Origin: a virus | Length of the DNA stretch: 26,931 nucleotides | Virus record (IMG/VR): IMGVR_UViG_3300034103_000118 | Coordinates: 1 to 26,931 of that record | Strand: one strand, 5' to 3' | In this document: piece by piece, positions 1,244 through 19,871 of the stretch | Position numbering within the stretch: the stretch's first letter is position 1 | Layout: the number at the start of each line of letters is the position of its first letter | The notes under the pieces: generated by a model | What the model saw: only the letters and a program-made list of their open reading frames with translations | What the model was told of the DNA's origin: nothing | The model's database searches: none | Made by a program: the position numbers and the translations under genes

Positions 1244-1735
1244 ATGACCAATCACAACATCGGTGACAGCGTCCGCGTCAACAAGGTCACCTTCTACCCC
1301 GAGAGGGCGGGCAAGGAAGGCACCATCATCGGCTTCTCCGACTACGGAAACCCCCTCGTCTCATTCCCCGGTTGGAAAGGCGGCCATGCCGGCAACGGCT
1401 ATGTCGATAACGTGGACAAGCTCCGTAAGGATTGTTGGTTCTTCCAGCTGGAACACCTCGACAACCTCTCGGCCAAGGCTCCGGCTCCCCTGCGGTCCTT
1501 CAAGAAGGGCTCACAGAACGCCATGCTGCTCAAGCACCTGATCAGCGGTCGAACGATCACCCGCATCGAGGCCGATCACATGTACCGGATCGCCTCGCTC
1601 ACCCGCCGCATCCGTGACCTCCGTGTCGCGGGCTACCCGATCACCTCGCTGGTGAAGTCGGACCCGCACGGTAGCCCCTACACCGAGTACGCGCTCCAGC
1701 AGCGTGACCGCTTCGGGAACAAGAAGGTGGCGTAA
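1244..1735 (+). CDS. HTH-domain protein with SH3/KOW-like N-terminus
   Basis: This is a 163-residue protein of unknown exact role. Residues about 6-76 look like a small SH3/KOW-type barrel: GDSVRV, then GKEGTIIGF, then a VDKL strand. Residues about 93-133 resemble the helix-turn-helix found in many phage small proteins (MLLKHLISGRTITRIEA followed by LTRRIRDLRVAGYPI). This suggests DNA or RNA binding, perhaps a transcription regulator. I chose the ATG at 1244 because AGGGAA lies 5 bases upstream; a longer in-frame start at 1190 would lie inside the hairpin. The stop overlaps the primase-helicase start (TAATG). The fold calls are by eye only. Confidence 0.75.
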   Translation: MTNHNIGDSVRVNKVTFYPERAGKEGTIIGFSDYGNPLVSFPGWKGGHAGNGYVDNVDKLRKDCWFFQLEHLDNLSAKAPAPLRSFKKGSQNAMLLKHLISGRTITRIEADHMYRIASLTRRIRDLRVAGYPITSLVKSDPHGSPYTEYALQQRDRFGNKKVA

Positions 1736-3348
1736 TGGACGAAAGCTCCTTCATCGGTAAGGAGCCATGCCCTGAGTGCGGGTCGAGGGATAACCTCGCC
1801 CGCTACTCGGACGGCCACGCATACTGTTTCGGATGTGGTCACTATGAGTATGGCGATGACGAGAACCCTACAACCAAGAGGAGTACCTACGTGGTAAGTG
1901 GCCTGATCACTGACGGCGGGATCGTAGCCCTCTCGAAGCGGGGCATCTCGGAAGAGACCGCGAAGAAGTTTGGCTACCGCGTGGCCACCTACAACGGCCA
2001 GAAGGTCCAGATCGCACCCTACTACGACGCTGAGGGCAACCTCGTGGCGCAGAAGGTGCGTTGGGCCAACAAGGACATGAAGATCTTCGGGGACTTCAAG
2101 AACGTCCTGCTCTTCGGTCAGCAGCTATGGGGTGAGGGTGGCCGCAAGGTCGTCATCACCGAAGGCGAGATCGACGCGATGACCGTGTCGCAGATGCAGG
2201 GCAACAAGTGGCCTGTCGTCTCGATCCAGAACGGTGCCCCAGGCGCGGCCAAGTCCATCAAGAAGCAGCTTGAGTGGCTCTCCTCGTTCGAGGAGGTCAT
2301 CCTGATGTTCGACATGGATGAGGCTGGCCAGAAGGCTGCTGTCGAGTGTGCCGAACTATTCGCCCCCGGCAAGGCGAAGATCGCTCACCTCCCTGAGAAG
2401 GACCCGAACGACTGTCTGACGAAGGGCAAGGGTCAGGAGATCATCAATGCCGTTTGGAACTCCAAGACCTACCGACCGGATGGTATCGTCGATGGTATGT
2501 CGCTGTGGGAAGCGGTCGTTAGTGAGGATCAGACGGCTTCCGTCACCTATCCTTGGGTCGCTCTCAACGTCACAACACATGGTCTACGATGTGGTGAGTT
2601 GGTCACCCTCACTGCCGGATCTGGAATTGGCAAGAGCGCCGTGGTCCGTGAGATCGCCCACCACCTGATCAAGATGGGCGAGCGGATCGGTATGATCATG
2701 CTCGAAGAGAGTACGAAGCGTACCGCTCTGGGCCTGATGGTCATCGAGTTGAACCGTCCTATCCACCTCAGCAAGGAAGGCGTCAGTGAGCAGCAACTCC
2801 GAGAAGCCTTCGATGCCACCCTCGGAAGCGGGCGTGTCTTCCTCTACGACCACTTCGGATCGACGGAGGTGGAGAACCTACTGTCCCGAGTCCGGTATAT
2901 GGCTCGCGCCCTCGACTGCCGGTGGGTGGTTCTTGACCATCTCTCCATCGTCGTATCGGGCCTTGATGATGGCGGCGACGAGCGCAAGCTCATCGACCGC
3001 ACGATGACCATGCTCAGAACCTTGGTCCAAGAGACCGGCATCGGCCTCATCCTCGTCTCCCACCTCAAGCGCCCCGACAAGAAGGGCCACGAGGAGGGCG
3101 CTCAGACCTCCCTGTCCCAACTTCGTGGCTCCCATGCCATCGCTCAGTTGTCGGACATGGTCCTCGGTCTGGAGCGCAACCAGCAAGGCGACAACCCCAA
3201 CGTCACGACAGTCCGCGTCCTCAAGAACCGGTTCTCCGGTGAGACGGGCGTGGCCTGCCATCTGGCATACGACAAGCACACCGGTCGGCTGGCCGAGTGC
3301 GAACCGGACTTCAAGGACGAGACCCAAGATGTGGATGGAGAGTTCTGA
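1735..3348 (+). CDS. DNA primase-helicase, T7 gp4-like
   Basis: This 537-residue bifunctional replication protein (T7 gp4 is 566) primes lagging-strand synthesis and unwinds the fork as a hexamer. The zinc-binding domain has Cys12, Cys15, Cys31 and Cys34. The TOPRIM primase core shows VVITEGEIDA (139-148) and ILMFDMDEAG (189-198). The RecA-like helicase core has Walker A AGSGIGKS (294-301), Walker B-like RWVVLDHLS (396-404), and a later VSHLKRP segment. It starts in a TAATG overlap behind an AAGAAGGTGG ribosome binding site. A candidate internal GTG start at 1891 would yield a 485-residue form without the zinc domain, like T7 gp4B. The next small gene begins at its stop codon. Confidence 0.97.
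   Translation: MDESSFIGKEPCPECGSRDNLARYSDGHAYCFGCGHYEYGDDENPTTKRSTYVVSGLITDGGIVALSKRGISEETAKKFGYRVATYNGQKVQIAPYYDAEGNLVAQKVRWANKDMKIFGDFKNVLLFGQQLWGEGGRKVVITEGEIDAMTVSQMQGNKWPVVSIQNGAPGAAKSIKKQLEWLSSFEEVILMFDMDEAGQKAAVECAELFAPGKAKIAHLPEKDPNDCLTKGKGQEIINAVWNSKTYRPDGIVDGMSLWEAVVSEDQTASVTYPWVALNVTTHGLRCGELVTLTAGSGIGKSAVVREIAHHLIKMGERIGMIMLEESTKRTALGLMVIELNRPIHLSKEGVSEQQLREAFDATLGSGRVFLYDHFGSTEVENLLSRVRYMARALDCRWVVLDHLSIVVSGLDDGGDERKLIDRTMTMLRTLVQETGIGLILVSHLKRPDKKGHEEGAQTSLSQLRGSHAIAQLSDMVLGLERNQQGDNPNVTTVRVLKNRFSGETGVACHLAYDKHTGRLAECEPDFKDETQDVDGEF
1876..1893 (+). promoter_or_regulatory. Candidate internal ribosome binding site and GTG start for a helicase-only form
   Basis: AAGAGGAG at 1876-1883 is followed after 7 bases by an in-frame GTG at 1891-1893 (codon 53). 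That position is just after the zinc-binding domain (last Cys34) and before the TOPRIM domain. T7 makes gp4A and gp4B from the same gene by an internal start at codon 64, so a similar two-product arrangement is plausible. The ribosome binding site and codon are seen; use of the start is inferred. Confidence 0.55.
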
Positions 3349-5640: not shown

Positions 5641-6303
5641 ATGCAAGCCAGCTATGTAGACCACATGGGCACCGACATGTCCGTGGTGGATGCCGCTCGC
5701 GTCTCCTTCGCGAAGAAGGGCGAGTGGTACTGGGACCCCATCCAAGAGGTGTGGTTCATGACCGAGACGGATCGCAAGCTGATCCGCTACCTCGCCCGGT
5801 ACAACCACTGGACCCCGTTCGCCCACACCGCGATCACCTTGCGGATGCAGGCCCCGGTGCCGATCAGAACCCAGTGCTTCAAGCACAAGTATGGCTTCGT
5901 CGAGAACGAGGAGAGCCGCCGCTACATCAGCACCACACCCGAACTGTTTATCCCCTACGTGTTCCGCAGCAAGGCCGACAGCGTCAAGCAGGGCTCCGGT
6001 GGGAAACACTACAACAGTTTCGGGTGGCTGTTCGACTACGAGGTCACATGCCGTCAGGCCATCAGCCTCTACGAGCGGATGATCGAGGACGGCATCTGCC
6101 CTGAGCAGGCCCGCTTCGTCCTCCCGCAGGGCGTCGAGGTTAACTGGGTATGGACCGGCAGCCTCGCCGCCTACGCCCGCTTCTACAACCAGCGTACCGA
6201 TCCCCATGCCCAACTTGAGGTTCAACAGTTGGCCTGTGAAGTCGGTGCGATTGTTGAACCCCTGTTCCCCCTCTCATGGAAGGCCCTGACCAATGGACTA
6301 TGA
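5641..6303 (+). CDS. thyX: Flavin-dependent thymidylate synthase (ThyX)
   Basis: This 220-residue ThyX methylates dUMP to dTMP using FAD, NADPH and methylene-tetrahydrofolate. Landmarks are NHWTPFAH (55-62), the signature region FKHKYGFVENEESRRY (80-95), EQARFVLP (155-162) and DPHAQLEVQQ (187-196). The usual RHRx7S signature is here KHKx8S, a divergent form I associate with phage ThyX proteins. Phage ThyX lets the virus make dTMP without host ThyA and without generating dihydrofolate. AAGGAG 6 bases before ATG 5641 supports the start. The gene opens the nucleotide-metabolism block, and its stop overlaps the next gene by 11 bases. Confidence 0.95.
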   Translation: MQASYVDHMGTDMSVVDAARVSFAKKGEWYWDPIQEVWFMTETDRKLIRYLARYNHWTPFAHTAITLRMQAPVPIRTQCFKHKYGFVENEESRRYISTTPELFIPYVFRSKADSVKQGSGGKHYNSFGWLFDYEVTCRQAISLYERMIEDGICPEQARFVLPQGVEVNWVWTGSLAAYARFYNQRTDPHAQLEVQQLACEVGAIVEPLFPLSWKALTNGL

Positions 6304-6907: not shown

Positions 6908-7644
6908 GAACCCTCCTGATCGACGCTGACGTGGTGGCCTACAAGGCTGCCACGTCGGTCGAGGTGGCCGCCGAATGGGAGCCCGGTTACTGGACGTGGC
7001 ACTGCGACGAGTACGAGGTGCGACGTGCCATCGACGACCAGATCGACAAGGTCATGGGTGATCTCGACGGCAAGGATTATCGCCTCTGCCTGACCGACAG
7101 CGCGGGAAACTTCCGCAAGCGCATCCTGCCCACCTACAAGGGCAACCGCTCCAACGTGAAGAAGCCCCTCGTCCTCAAGGCCATCCGCCAGTGGCTCATC
7201 GAGGAGAAGGGAGCCTACCTCCGACCTGGTCTGGAGGGCGACGACTGCATGGGCATCTTCGCCACATGGTCCAAGCTCAAGGGCGAGAAGGTCATCGTGT
7301 CCATCGACAAGGACATGAAGACCATTCCCGGCCTCTACAGCCGCGATGGCGAGACCATCGTGGAGGTGAGCGAGGACGAAGCCGACTACTGGCATCTCTT
7401 CCAGACCCTCACCGGGGACCAGACGGATGGCTACTCAGGCTGTCCCGGCATCGGCCCCAAGAAGGCTGAGGCCATCCTCCAGCACCCCGACAATCAGGAC
7501 GACCTGTGGGGTGTGGTGGTTCGGACCTTCGTCAAGGCTGGCCTCAACGAGGATGAGGCTCTCGTGCAGGCCCGTGTGGCCCGCATCCTCCGCGCCTCCG
7601 ACTACGACTTCGAGAAGAAGGAGCCAATCCTGTGGACCCCGTGA
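6904..7644 (+). CDS. 5'-3' exonuclease, T7 gp6-like
   Basis: This 246-residue protein belongs to the FEN/5'-3' exonuclease family. In T7, gp6 removes RNA primers and degrades host DNA to nucleotides. Metal-binding acidic clusters are visible at Asp7 (LLIDADV), EGDD (111-114), SIDKD (133-137) and GDQTDGY (171-177). They are followed by a helix-hairpin-helix DNA-binding segment, GCPGIGPKKA (179-188). The basic stretch TYKGNR (77-82) fits the family. It sits at the T7 gene 6 position, after polymerase, though several inserted genes separate them. The next gene begins within its last codons. Confidence 0.95.
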   Translation: MRTLLIDADVVAYKAATSVEVAAEWEPGYWTWHCDEYEVRRAIDDQIDKVMGDLDGKDYRLCLTDSAGNFRKRILPTYKGNRSNVKKPLVLKAIRQWLIEEKGAYLRPGLEGDDCMGIFATWSKLKGEKVIVSIDKDMKTIPGLYSRDGETIVEVSEDEADYWHLFQTLTGDQTDGYSGCPGIGPKKAEAILQHPDNQDDLWGVVVRTFVKAGLNEDEALVQARVARILRASDYDFEKKEPILWTP

Positions 7645-8072
7645 AGTGTTCCTTCTGCGGCGGCGTAACGCTCGAACCCTGCACCTCCCTTGTGGAGGCA
7701 GAGCAGAGCGCCGAACTCTGCACCTCCCTTGTGGAGGCAGAGCAGAGCGCCAAACTCGGCACCCACCCCTGCGTCAGCTACCACTATGCAAAGGCCACGA
7801 TGCCCAAGATGCACGCAACGATCAAACCCAAGGCTACTCCTGAGAAGTCCGATGGTTCTTTCACTGGCTACTACAAGATCCCCGAAGGTGCTACCGACCT
7901 GATCGACCTGATCGAACACAAGAACATGTCGTTCGGTGTCGGCAACATCTTCAAGGCCTGCTACCGCCTCGGAGAGAAGGACGGCACTGATGCCACCTAC
8001 GACCTCCGCAAGATCATCTTCTTTGCACAACGCACCCTCGCGCAGATCGAGAAAGGAACTACCAATGGTTAA
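7632..8072 (+). CDS. DUF3310-family protein with a duplicated N-terminal segment
   Basis: This 146-residue protein ends in a DUF3310-like domain (from YYKIPEGATDLIDLIEHK through MSFGVGNIFKACYRLGEKDG to DLRKIIFFAQRTL). The family is common in phages and is sometimes labelled nucleotide kinase, without firm evidence. GTG 7632 is chosen because AAGAAGGAG lies 8 bases upstream. GTG 7641 and ATG 7801 are alternatives, the last giving only the conserved domain. The N-terminus has a CSFCGG knuckle, then two tandem copies of a 13-residue unit ending in TSLVEAEQSA, encoded by a 39 bp direct repeat. That segment is not part of the family core and looks like a recent insertion or duplication. Confidence 0.8.
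   Translation: MDPVKCSFCGGVTLEPCTSLVEAEQSAELCTSLVEAEQSAKLGTHPCVSYHYAKATMPKMHATIKPKATPEKSDGSFTGYYKIPEGATDLIDLIEHKNMSFGVGNIFKACYRLGEKDGTDATYDLRKIIFFAQRTLAQIEKGTTNG
7674..7763 (+). repeat. 39 bp in-frame tandem direct repeat with internal hairpins
   Basis: Copy 1 (7674-7712) and copy 2 (7713-7751) differ at one base (37 or 38 of 39 match by eye). A decayed start of a third copy follows at 7752-7763 (10 of 12 bases match). Each unit holds a CCTCC, CTTGT loop, GGAGG stem (7684-7698 and 7723-7737). In copy 2 outer CTCTGC/GCAGAG arms can extend the stem. The unit is 13 codons, so the reading frame is kept. Confidence 0.9.
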
Positions 8073-8547: not shown

Positions 8548-8663
8548 TCGAGAAGATCGCGAAAGCGTTCGTGGTGACCCTCGCGGTATTGGTGGCTCTG
8601 GTCATCAACATCGCGTGGCTCATCTTCCCCCTCTTCTTCATCTACTGGGTGATCTACGGATGA
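8544..8663 (+). CDS. 39-residue membrane microprotein
   Basis: ATG 8544 overlaps the MazG-like stop (ATGA), and TGA 8661-8663 overlaps the RNR start (ATGA), so the frame exactly bridges the two genes. After a short basic start (MIEKIAKAF) the product is almost wholly hydrophobic, with about 28 residues from VVTLAVLVALVINIAWL to the FFIYW region. That is enough for one long or two short membrane segments. It has no lipobox or cleavage site. No strong ribosome binding site is seen, so translational coupling is likely. Its function is unknown. A holin role is possible but the position is odd for that, and another holin candidate lies at 14719. Confidence 0.7.
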   Translation: MIEKIAKAFVVTLAVLVALVINIAWLIFPLFFIYWVIYG

Positions 8664-10606
8664 CAGTCTCTACCCGCGCTCAGGTGACCACCCGGCGCAC
8701 TTACAACAGACCCCTAGATGGCGGCACCTACGAGACGTGGGAGCAGACCATCGACCGGGTGATCTCTCACCAACGTTGGCTCTGGGAACGCGCCAAGAAG
8801 GCGTACCTCTCGGACTATGAGAACGCGGAACTGGATGAGCTTCGTCACCTGATGCTCGACCGTAAGGCCCTCCCCTCGGGCCGCACACTCTGGCTCGGAG
8901 GAACCGACGTTGCCAAGCGGAGGGAAGCCTCGCAGTTCAATTGCTCTTTCGGTCGCATTGAGACTGTTCACGATGTTGTTGATGCCTCCTGGCTTCTCTT
9001 ACAGGGATGCGGAGTTGGTGCTCAAGCAGTCGTTGGCACTCTCAACGGCTTCGCTGTCCCGGTGGAGATCGAGGTGGTTCGCTCGACGCGGACCACGAAG
9101 GGTTACGAAAACAGCGTCCTCATCAACGTCCAAGGCACGGTCGTCCTCAAGGTTGGTGATAGTGCTGAGGCATGGACCAAAGCGGTTGGTAAGCTCCTTA
9201 CGTACAAGACCCCGTTCAAGAAGCTGATCCTCGACTTCTCGGAGATCCGTCCTGCCGGCACAATCCTCGCGGGCTATGGTTGGATCTCCTCGGGGGACAA
9301 ACAGATCAGCATCGCCTTCCCAGCCATCGCGAAGATCCTGTCCGACAGGGCAGGGCAGCTTCTCACGGCTGAGGACATCAACGACGTGATCAACCACCTC
9401 GGTGACATCCTGTCCTCGCGACGTGCCGCTGAGATCCTGCTCCACAACTACGGCACCCCTGGTTGGGAAGAGTTTGCCCTTCGCAAGAAGGACCACTGGT
9501 CGAACGGCCAGATGCAACGGGCTCAGTCCAACAACTCCCTCCTGTTCTACACGAAGCCCACGCGGGCCGAACTGTGGGACATCTTCCTCAAGATGGAGGA
9601 GGGTGGTGGATCGGAGCCGGGGTTCATCAACGCTCAGGCTGCCCTCAAGCGGGCTCCTTGGTTCAAGGGGGTTAACCCCTGCGCCGAGATCCTGCTTGGC
9701 AACAAGAGCTTCTGCAACCTCGTGGAGATCGACCTCGGCAAGTTCAACGGGGAGTTCACCTCCCTTCGTTGGGCCATCCGCCTGATCGCTCGGGCGAACT
9801 ACCGGCAGACCTGTGTGAACCTCGACGACGGCATCCTCCAGCGGTCGTGGCACGAACTGAACGAGTTCCTGCGCCTGTGCGGCGTGGGCCTCACTGGCAT
9901 CGTCCGGTGGGAGTTCAGGGACCAGCCCAACATGTTCCGCCGTCTTCGCGGCGAGGCCTCGCGGGGCGCTCACTCCATGGCTGACGAACTGGGCCTCCCT
10001 CGGGCCAAGGCCATCACCACGGTGAAGCCCTCGGGCACCCTGTCGAAGATCATGGACACCACGGAGGGCGTCCACAAGCCCCTCGGGAAGCACGTCTTCA
10101 ACAACATCAACTTCTCGGTCTACTCACCCATCATCCCGGTCCTCCGTGACGCTGGCTACCGGGTCTTCCCAAACCCCTACGATGCCACCTTGGTACTGGC
10201 CACGTTCCCTGTGTCCTACGAGGACGTGGAGTTCGACATCGTGGACGGCAAGGAGGTGAACGTGGAAAGTGCAGTTGCCCAGCTTGAGCGTTATCGGCTC
10301 CTGATGGACAACTATGTGGACCACAACTGCTCAATCACGGTCTCCTACGACAAGGAAGAGATCCGTGACATCATCGAGTGGCTGCTCCTCAACTGGGACA
10401 GCTACGTTGGAGTGTCGTTCATCTACCGGAACGATCCGACCAAGACTGCCGCTGACCTTGGCTACCCGTACCTCCCTCAGGAGGTGGTGTCCAAGGAGGT
10501 GTTCAACATCTACGTCGCTGGCCTCAAGCCGGTGAACCTAGACGCCTCGGTGGTCGATGACATGGAGGATGCTGACTGTGCAACAGGGGCCTGCCCCATC
10601 CGTTGA
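8660..10606 (+). CDS. nrdJ: Adenosylcobalamin-dependent (class II) ribonucleotide reductase, monomeric type
   Basis: This 648-residue enzyme reduces ribonucleotides to deoxyribonucleotides with a B12-derived radical, without oxygen or a second subunit. The pattern matches the Lactobacillus leichmannii-type enzyme. Cys95 (SQFNCSF) and Cys352 (NKSFCNL) form the active-site pair. Cys341 and Glu343 in GVNPCAEI are the radical cysteine and acid, and the 11-residue spacing of Cys341 and Cys352 is the same as in that enzyme. The shuttle pair is Cys640 and Cys645 in CATGAC near the C-terminus. VKPSGTLS (455-462) is the phosphate-binding loop. ATG 8660 overlaps the upstream stop; a 15-codon extension to 8615 lies within the membrane microprotein gene and is rejected. 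The host must supply cobalamin. Confidence 0.96.
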   Translation: MTVSTRAQVTTRRTYNRPLDGGTYETWEQTIDRVISHQRWLWERAKKAYLSDYENAELDELRHLMLDRKALPSGRTLWLGGTDVAKRREASQFNCSFGRIETVHDVVDASWLLLQGCGVGAQAVVGTLNGFAVPVEIEVVRSTRTTKGYENSVLINVQGTVVLKVGDSAEAWTKAVGKLLTYKTPFKKLILDFSEIRPAGTILAGYGWISSGDKQISIAFPAIAKILSDRAGQLLTAEDINDVINHLGDILSSRRAAEILLHNYGTPGWEEFALRKKDHWSNGQMQRAQSNNSLLFYTKPTRAELWDIFLKMEEGGGSEPGFINAQAALKRAPWFKGVNPCAEILLGNKSFCNLVEIDLGKFNGEFTSLRWAIRLIARANYRQTCVNLDDGILQRSWHELNEFLRLCGVGLTGIVRWEFRDQPNMFRRLRGEASRGAHSMADELGLPRAKAITTVKPSGTLSKIMDTTEGVHKPLGKHVFNNINFSVYSPIIPVLRDAGYRVFPNPYDATLVLATFPVSYEDVEFDIVDGKEVNVESAVAQLERYRLLMDNYVDHNCSITVSYDKEEIRDIIEWLLLNWDSYVGVSFIYRNDPTKTAADLGYPYLPQEVVSKEVFNIYVAGLKPVNLDASVVDDMEDADCATGACPIR

Positions 10607-10896: not shown

Positions 10897-11574
10897 ATGG
10901 CCCGCAAGTCCCGCGACGACAAGTTCGTGGAGGAGCGCGTTCCTGCGCCGATCCGTCCCCTGACTGCCAAGCAGGCTGAGTACATCAATGCCATCATGAC
11001 CTCCGAAATGGTGACCGTGATGGGACCAGCCGGAACCGGAAAGACGTATGTCGCTGCCACCATCGCTGCTGATCTTCTACGGGCTCGCCACATTCATCGG
11101 ATCGTCCTCACTCGACCGAACGTTGCGTCAGGCCGATCGCTCGGCTTCTTCCCCGGAACCCTCGAAGAGAAGATTGGGCCTTGGGTGGTCCCGTTCACGG
11201 ATGTCATTCGCCAGAGAATGGGTGAAGGAGCGTTCGAGGTTGCGCTGAAGAAGGGCGACATCGACATCGTCCCCTTCGAGGTGATGCGTGGGCGCACCTT
11301 CAACAACAGCTTCATCATCCTCGACGAGGCGCAGAACACCACGATCCCTGAGATCAAGATGTTCCTGACCCGGCTCGGTAAGGACAGCACCACGATCATC
11401 AACGGCGATGTGGCCCAGACGGACCTCAGGGAGACCTCAGGCCTCTCGAAGGTCATCCAGATGGCCAAGCGGCACATGCTGCCAGTACCGGTCATTGAGT
11501 TCGGTGTTGAAGACATCGTCAGGTCTGACCTGTGTGCCATGTGGGTCAAGGCTTTCTTGAAAGAAGGTCTGTGA
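10897..11574 (+). CDS. phoH: PhoH-like ATPase
   Basis: This 225-residue P-loop protein of the PhoH family is common in marine phages. Walker A is GPAGTGKT (43-50), Walker B is FIILDEAQNT (139-148), and INGDVAQTDL (168-177) is the sensor-like block expected in PhoH. RPNVASGRSLGFFPGT (73-88) is also a family hallmark. The cellular role is unsettled; proposals include phosphate stress and RNA metabolism. AAGGA (10885-10889) is 7 bases before ATG 10897. It is the last gene before the structural block, and only 25 bases separate it from the next ORF. Confidence 0.94.
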   Translation: MARKSRDDKFVEERVPAPIRPLTAKQAEYINAIMTSEMVTVMGPAGTGKTYVAATIAADLLRARHIHRIVLTRPNVASGRSLGFFPGTLEEKIGPWVVPFTDVIRQRMGEGAFEVALKKGDIDIVPFEVMRGRTFNNSFIILDEAQNTTIPEIKMFLTRLGKDSTTIINGDVAQTDLRETSGLSKVIQMAKRHMLPVPVIEFGVEDIVRSDLCAMWVKAFLKEGL

Positions 11575-19415: not shown

Positions 19416-19871
19416 ATGATGCAGTCCGTCCGAAGCGCAAGGCTTGAGGACATTGAGTACCTCGTGCCACACCTTCGGGCGGCTGATCTAGCTGAGGTTG
19501 CTGCGGCGAGCGCACTACCGCCCGCCAATAGCCTCGCAATCGCCTTCAGGGGCTCGTACACGGCCTTCACAACCCTCTCGGCTACTACCCTACTGCCCAC
19601 GGGTATGGGAGGCGTTGTAGGGGCTCCTGAGAGGCCGGGGCTCGTATGGTTCCTCGGGACCAACGAGGTCACCGAACAATCCGTCTATCACCTCAAGATG
19701 AGCAGGAGGGTGGTGGACGCCCTCGCGTATGGGAGGCCTGAACTCCACGCAATCTCCGACAACCGGAACACCGTCCACCACAGATGGCTCAAGTGGGTGG
19801 GGTTCATCCCCACAGACGTACTCGTCGCTGACGGGTTCACCCACTTCATAAGGAACAACGAACATGTGTGA
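19416..19871 (+). CDS. gp13-like protein with acetyltransferase (GNAT)-like fold
   Basis: This 151-residue protein (T7 gp13 is about 138) sits between gp12 and gp14 homologues. The N-terminal VRSARLEDIEYLVPHLRAAD is typical of GNAT-like N-acetyltransferases. The C-terminal VWFLGTNEVTEQSVYHLKMS and NRNTVHHRWLKWVGF match the gp13 pattern. T7 gp13 is needed for proper core assembly rather than known enzyme activity. The ORF starts 3 bases after gp12 with an ATGATG. It overlaps the gp14-like gene by 8 bases. Confidence 0.85.
   Translation: MMQSVRSARLEDIEYLVPHLRAADLAEVAAASALPPANSLAIAFRGSYTAFTTLSATTLLPTGMGGVVGAPERPGLVWFLGTNEVTEQSVYHLKMSRRVVDALAYGRPELHAISDNRNTVHHRWLKWVGFIPTDVLVADGFTHFIRNNEHV

Follow-up and report, generated by a model that had tools for sequence, protein, structure and literature searches.

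The primase-helicase gene in the window studied here (the whole stretch of DNA analysed, a virus record of 26.9 kb) probably has a second, internal start at codon 53, which looks selected, forms a dual start of the phage T7 gp4A/gp4B type, and would give rise to a short form of the protein. The site consists of a Shine-Dalgarno (SD) sequence and an in-frame GTG in the linker between the zinc-binding and RNA-polymerase domains, and codon choice at the corresponding sites of related genes looks selected as well. A dual start is already known from T7; judging from the genes compared here, its distribution beyond T7 is likely the more interesting part.

Position of the proposed internal start

The gene encodes a zinc domain, an RNA-polymerase/TOPRIM region and a DnaB-type helicase in one chain (Table 1), the architecture of T7 gp4, and its fold is already covered by solved T7 gp4 structures. 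Pfam searches of the 537-aa protein place Helic-prim_T7_N at aa 61-119 and DnaB_C at aa 276-518, with TOPRIM, the second half of the RNA-polymerase domain, starting at about aa 138; zinc models gave sub-threshold matches only. The GTG of codon 53 is in frame with the ATG at 1735 and falls between the last zinc cysteine, at aa 34, and the RNA-polymerase domain at aa 61, so that an in-frame start codon stands where the gp4A/gp4B arrangement has one. Upstream of it, AAGAGGAG is formed by Lys48 (AAG), Arg49 (AGG) and the first two bases of Ser50 (AGT), and is separated from the GTG by the seven bases TACCTAC (1884-1890). The earlier note had described an SD seven bases before an in-frame GTG at codon 53, and the sequence reads exactly so; its placement of the site between the zinc-binding and TOPRIM domains is right as to the zinc side and slightly loose as to the other, which is the RNA-polymerase domain as a whole.

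Table 1. Features of the primase-helicase gene and its two candidate starts
Feature	Position	Strand	Evidence
Primary ribosome-binding region AAGAAGGTG	1721..1734	+	Precedes ATG 1735; SD -9.7 kcal/mol
Primase-helicase ORF, full length, 537 aa, gp4A-like	1735..3348	+	phrog_239 E=4e-208; T7 gp4 6n7i E=1.6e-128
Zinc-binding domain, cysteines aa 12, 15, 31, 34	1768..1836	+	Aligned with T7 zinc domain
Internal Shine-Dalgarno AAGAGGAG	1876..1883	+	-11.0 kcal/mol; synonymous-null p=0.014
Proposed internal GTG start, codon 53	1891..1893	+	Codon-choice test and homologues
Proposed short product, 485 aa, gp4B-like; RNA-polymerase/TOPRIM and helicase, without zinc domain	1891..3348	+	Predicted; 1q57 alignment
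Decoy ATG191 with SD-like GAGGAGGT	2290..2307	+	Conserved TOPRIM residues EEVILMFD; synonymous-null p ~0.4

Codon choice at the linker site

We scored SDs as ungapped, spacing-limited duplex energies, assuming the standard anti-SD; unconstrained duplex folding was dropped as a score because it gave spuriously strong values. Codon 53 has a stronger SD than both the primary start and the median gene start of the window (-7.7 kcal/mol). Strength alone is nevertheless weak evidence, because strong SD-like sites are common among the 327 internal in-frame ATG/GTG codons of the 23 ORFs surveyed (with an offset of one base in the entry for one small ORF): 54 score -7.5 kcal/mol or below, 16 reach -9.5 and six reach -11. 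Within the same gene, ATG191 scores -16.5 kcal/mol, and its SD is fully explained because the TOPRIM amino acids force SD-like letters. Duplex strength was rejected as a sole criterion, as amino-acid-forced sites of this kind score higher.

Because strong sites are common and ATG191 outscores codon 53, we applied a synonymous null in which codons were redrawn from the phage's own usage with the amino acids held fixed. Among the 24 internal ATG/GTG codons tested in the primase-helicase gene, codon 53 is the only one with p<0.1. It ranks second (p=0.013) among the 16 strong internal sites of the window (SD <= -9.5); the first, at 19866, is explained by a real gene start at 19864 and serves as a positive control. 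A further positive control, the T7 gp4B start, has an SD of -15.3 and a synonymous-null p of 0.02-0.04. Codon 53 thus has its own ribosome-binding site, suitably spaced and exceeding what the protein sequence forces. Openness of the mRNA is ordinary at the site, being exceeded at 31% of codons, and is uninformative; Rfam and tRNA scans gave no hits. GTG is a less efficient initiator than ATG.

Taken without the relatives, a single-gene p of 0.014 is modest. It could be that the codons for Lys-Arg-Ser and then Val produce an SD and a GTG by accident, and that only the full-length protein is made; the frequency of chance SD-like sites in the window and the many relatives that have no linker site fit such a coincidence. 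The SD at codon 53, however, needs minority codons (AGG provides 45 of 433 Arg codons in the window, AGT 14 of 389 Ser codons), and matching codon bias recurs specifically before the linker start codons of relatives. We therefore think coincidence unlikely.

Linker start codons among relatives

We reduced 434 usable homologues to 156 representatives at 85% identity, 106 of which form the window's group. One homologue, from what is almost the same virus, has an identical gene and contributes no further information. Among distinct relatives the closest (L002, 72%) reads CCT AGG AGG AGC CGC ATG, that is, AGGAGG and an ATG53 one aligned column later (synonymous-null p ~0.02-0.03), and the next one out on the tree (L209) has GGAGG and an ATG in the linker. 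At 59% identity, L045 has the identical AAGAGGAG, again followed after 7 nt by a start codon, in this case ATG. Linker sites are also present in the Pelagibacter phages HTVC134P (ATG48, GAGGTG) and HTVC031P (ATG46, AAGGAG) and in the isolate CRP-171 (GTG48, GAGGTG), and RHEph21 and TRX32-1 have a linker ATG with AAGGA; among the named isolates checked, Pasto, CRP-804 and CRP-118 have no linker site.

Across the 106-member group, SDs with p<=0.1 precede 23 of 93 linker ATG/GTG codons and 127 of 2160 such codons in the rest of the gene (p=1e-8, a value that is optimistic, like those of the other group tests, because related sequences count as separate). When each 70% cluster is represented once, the linker starts still differ from starts elsewhere (p=1e-5) and from non-start linker codons (p=0.001). 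Of the 45 arginine codons two to five positions before linker starts, 35 are AGG or AGA, compared with 26% elsewhere (p=1e-12). Together with the sites in L002 and L209, this SD-forming bias supports the reading of codon 53 as a gp4B-like start that the earlier note had put forward.

The SD-like stretch might instead make ribosomes pause, or help the protein to fold, between the zinc and polymerase domains, and its location at the domain junction would suit that role. A pause, however, would require no suitably spaced start codon, and within these linkers only 7% of the non-start codons (130/1777) have codon-driven SDs, as against 25% of ATG/GTG (p=5e-7); the remaining linker arginines in those genes are mostly CGN, with AGR in only 4 of 24. 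We consider a pause very improbable, and a start at codon 53 remains our preferred reading.

In genes that have no linker ATG/GTG, the corresponding arginine figure is 13 AGR of 25, which might reflect TTG starts. One clade (L211-L226) has no linker ATG/GTG, and linker TTG codons with moderate SDs are seen there (L211 TTG57, L218 TTG56); these are possible TTG starts.

The trait is patchy. A linker ATG/GTG of any kind occurs in 67 of the 106 group members and a start with a strong SD in 43, with the strong site absent or weak in the other 63; among T7-group representatives, 9 of 14 have a strong linker site. On the 156-member tree the trait changes 36 times, compared with 52 for shuffled labels (minimum 41), and is clustered but turning over. 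The expectation that homologues would keep the SD and GTG despite synonymous drift is borne out only loosely, through function-like features, which recur in L002, L209 and the group statistics. The exact combination of AAGAGGAG and GTG is not kept, and the motif, the start codon and the position all vary.

Comparison with T7 and other phages

The window gene and T7 gene 4A/4B are homologous over their whole length, and T7-group proteins are about 42% identical to the window's. In T7 the internal start is codon 64, which follows the zinc domain within the linker and has a strong SD; the window site is likewise placed, and T7 Met64 aligns about three residues from Val53. The T7 chain 1q57, with 503 residues (the length of T7 residues 64-566), aligns with aa 60-523 of the window protein. 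The window differs in using GTG in place of ATG, in its weaker SD and in its shorter linker; both 4A and 4B are annotated in the T7 record, whereas the short product of the window is putative.

GTG is also used, with strong SDs, in the linkers of two T7 relatives from a lineage other than the window's, Yersinia phage vB_YenP_AP10 (AGGAGGT) and Morganella phage vB_MmoP_MP2 (GGAGGTG), whose annotated features under the match include no short form. The earlier note's idea of a convergent start with a different codon is therefore not supported over common descent; on the sequences compared, shared ancestry with turnover appears to fit at least as well.

Rhizobium phage RHEph21 has an ATG53 where the window has GTG, at the equivalent junction. 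Its deposited primase/helicase CDS (L448, MW980070.1, 357-1856) begins at this internal ATG53, and a zinc domain encoded in frame upstream is omitted by the annotation; the CDS is a probable mis-annotation of the long form. In Desulfovibrio phage ProddE (L084), the annotated genes 006A and 006B comprise a primase/helicase of full length and a helicase CDS internal to it. The internal start there, GTG at codon 105 (position 595), lies beyond the linker and inside the polymerase domain, unlike that of T7 gp4B, and the ProddE linker has no ATG/GTG. A search of literature available without subscription found no reports of gp4B-like forms outside T7 and no ribosome profiling of T7.

A model for two products from one gene

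We infer that one mRNA would yield two collinear proteins. Ribosomes starting at the ATG at 1735 would make the 537-aa primase-helicase, and others, binding AAGAGGAG in the interdomain linker, would start at the GTG at 1891 and make the 485-aa protein. The latter would retain the RNA-polymerase/TOPRIM and helicase domains and lack the zinc domain needed for recognition of priming sites. If T7 gp4A/gp4B is a guide, helicase rings may incorporate both forms and would then carry fewer zinc domains. In T7, the 63-kDa form is required and the 56-kDa form is unable to prime, and unwinding and synthesis are better coupled by mixtures of the two than by the long form alone (PMC12593628). Two forms here would most likely share the work in the same manner.

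Whether the two-product strategy is old and widely maintained in the T7-type primase-helicases of marine, soil and enteric phages, with function kept as the start codon (ATG or GTG) and its exact position turn over, is to us an evenly balanced question, and so is the idea that the junction ATG/GTG of Syn5-type phages may persist without an SD. The evidence that codon choice in distant phages preserves a linker start suggests that the short form is important in nature. Gene callers may overlook this form or, as with RHEph21, report it alone and so hide the zinc domain.

Syn5-type cyanophages and other features of the window

In the Syn5 group (L127-L206), 24 of 27 representatives have an ATG/GTG at the zinc/polymerase junction or close to it, 12-14 codons before a conserved Arg of the polymerase domain. 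No strong SD accompanies it at the junction itself, although in about half of the representatives one of the candidate primary starts has a strong SD. The junction Val is encoded by GTG in 10 of 11 cases versus 20% elsewhere, a figure that derives partly from related Met-Val pairs. These codons may mark internal initiation that needs no SD, or Met may simply be favoured there.

Elsewhere in the window, thymidylate synthase, ribonucleotide reductase and PhoH-like genes (5641-6303, 8615-10606 and 10897-11574, respectively) lie in the same replication/metabolism stretch. A small ORF at 7632-8072, with a weak match to kinase-family PHROGs, contains near its start an in-frame tandem repeat (7673-7763; period 39, 2.3 copies) that encodes the repeated peptide CTSLVEAEQSAEL.
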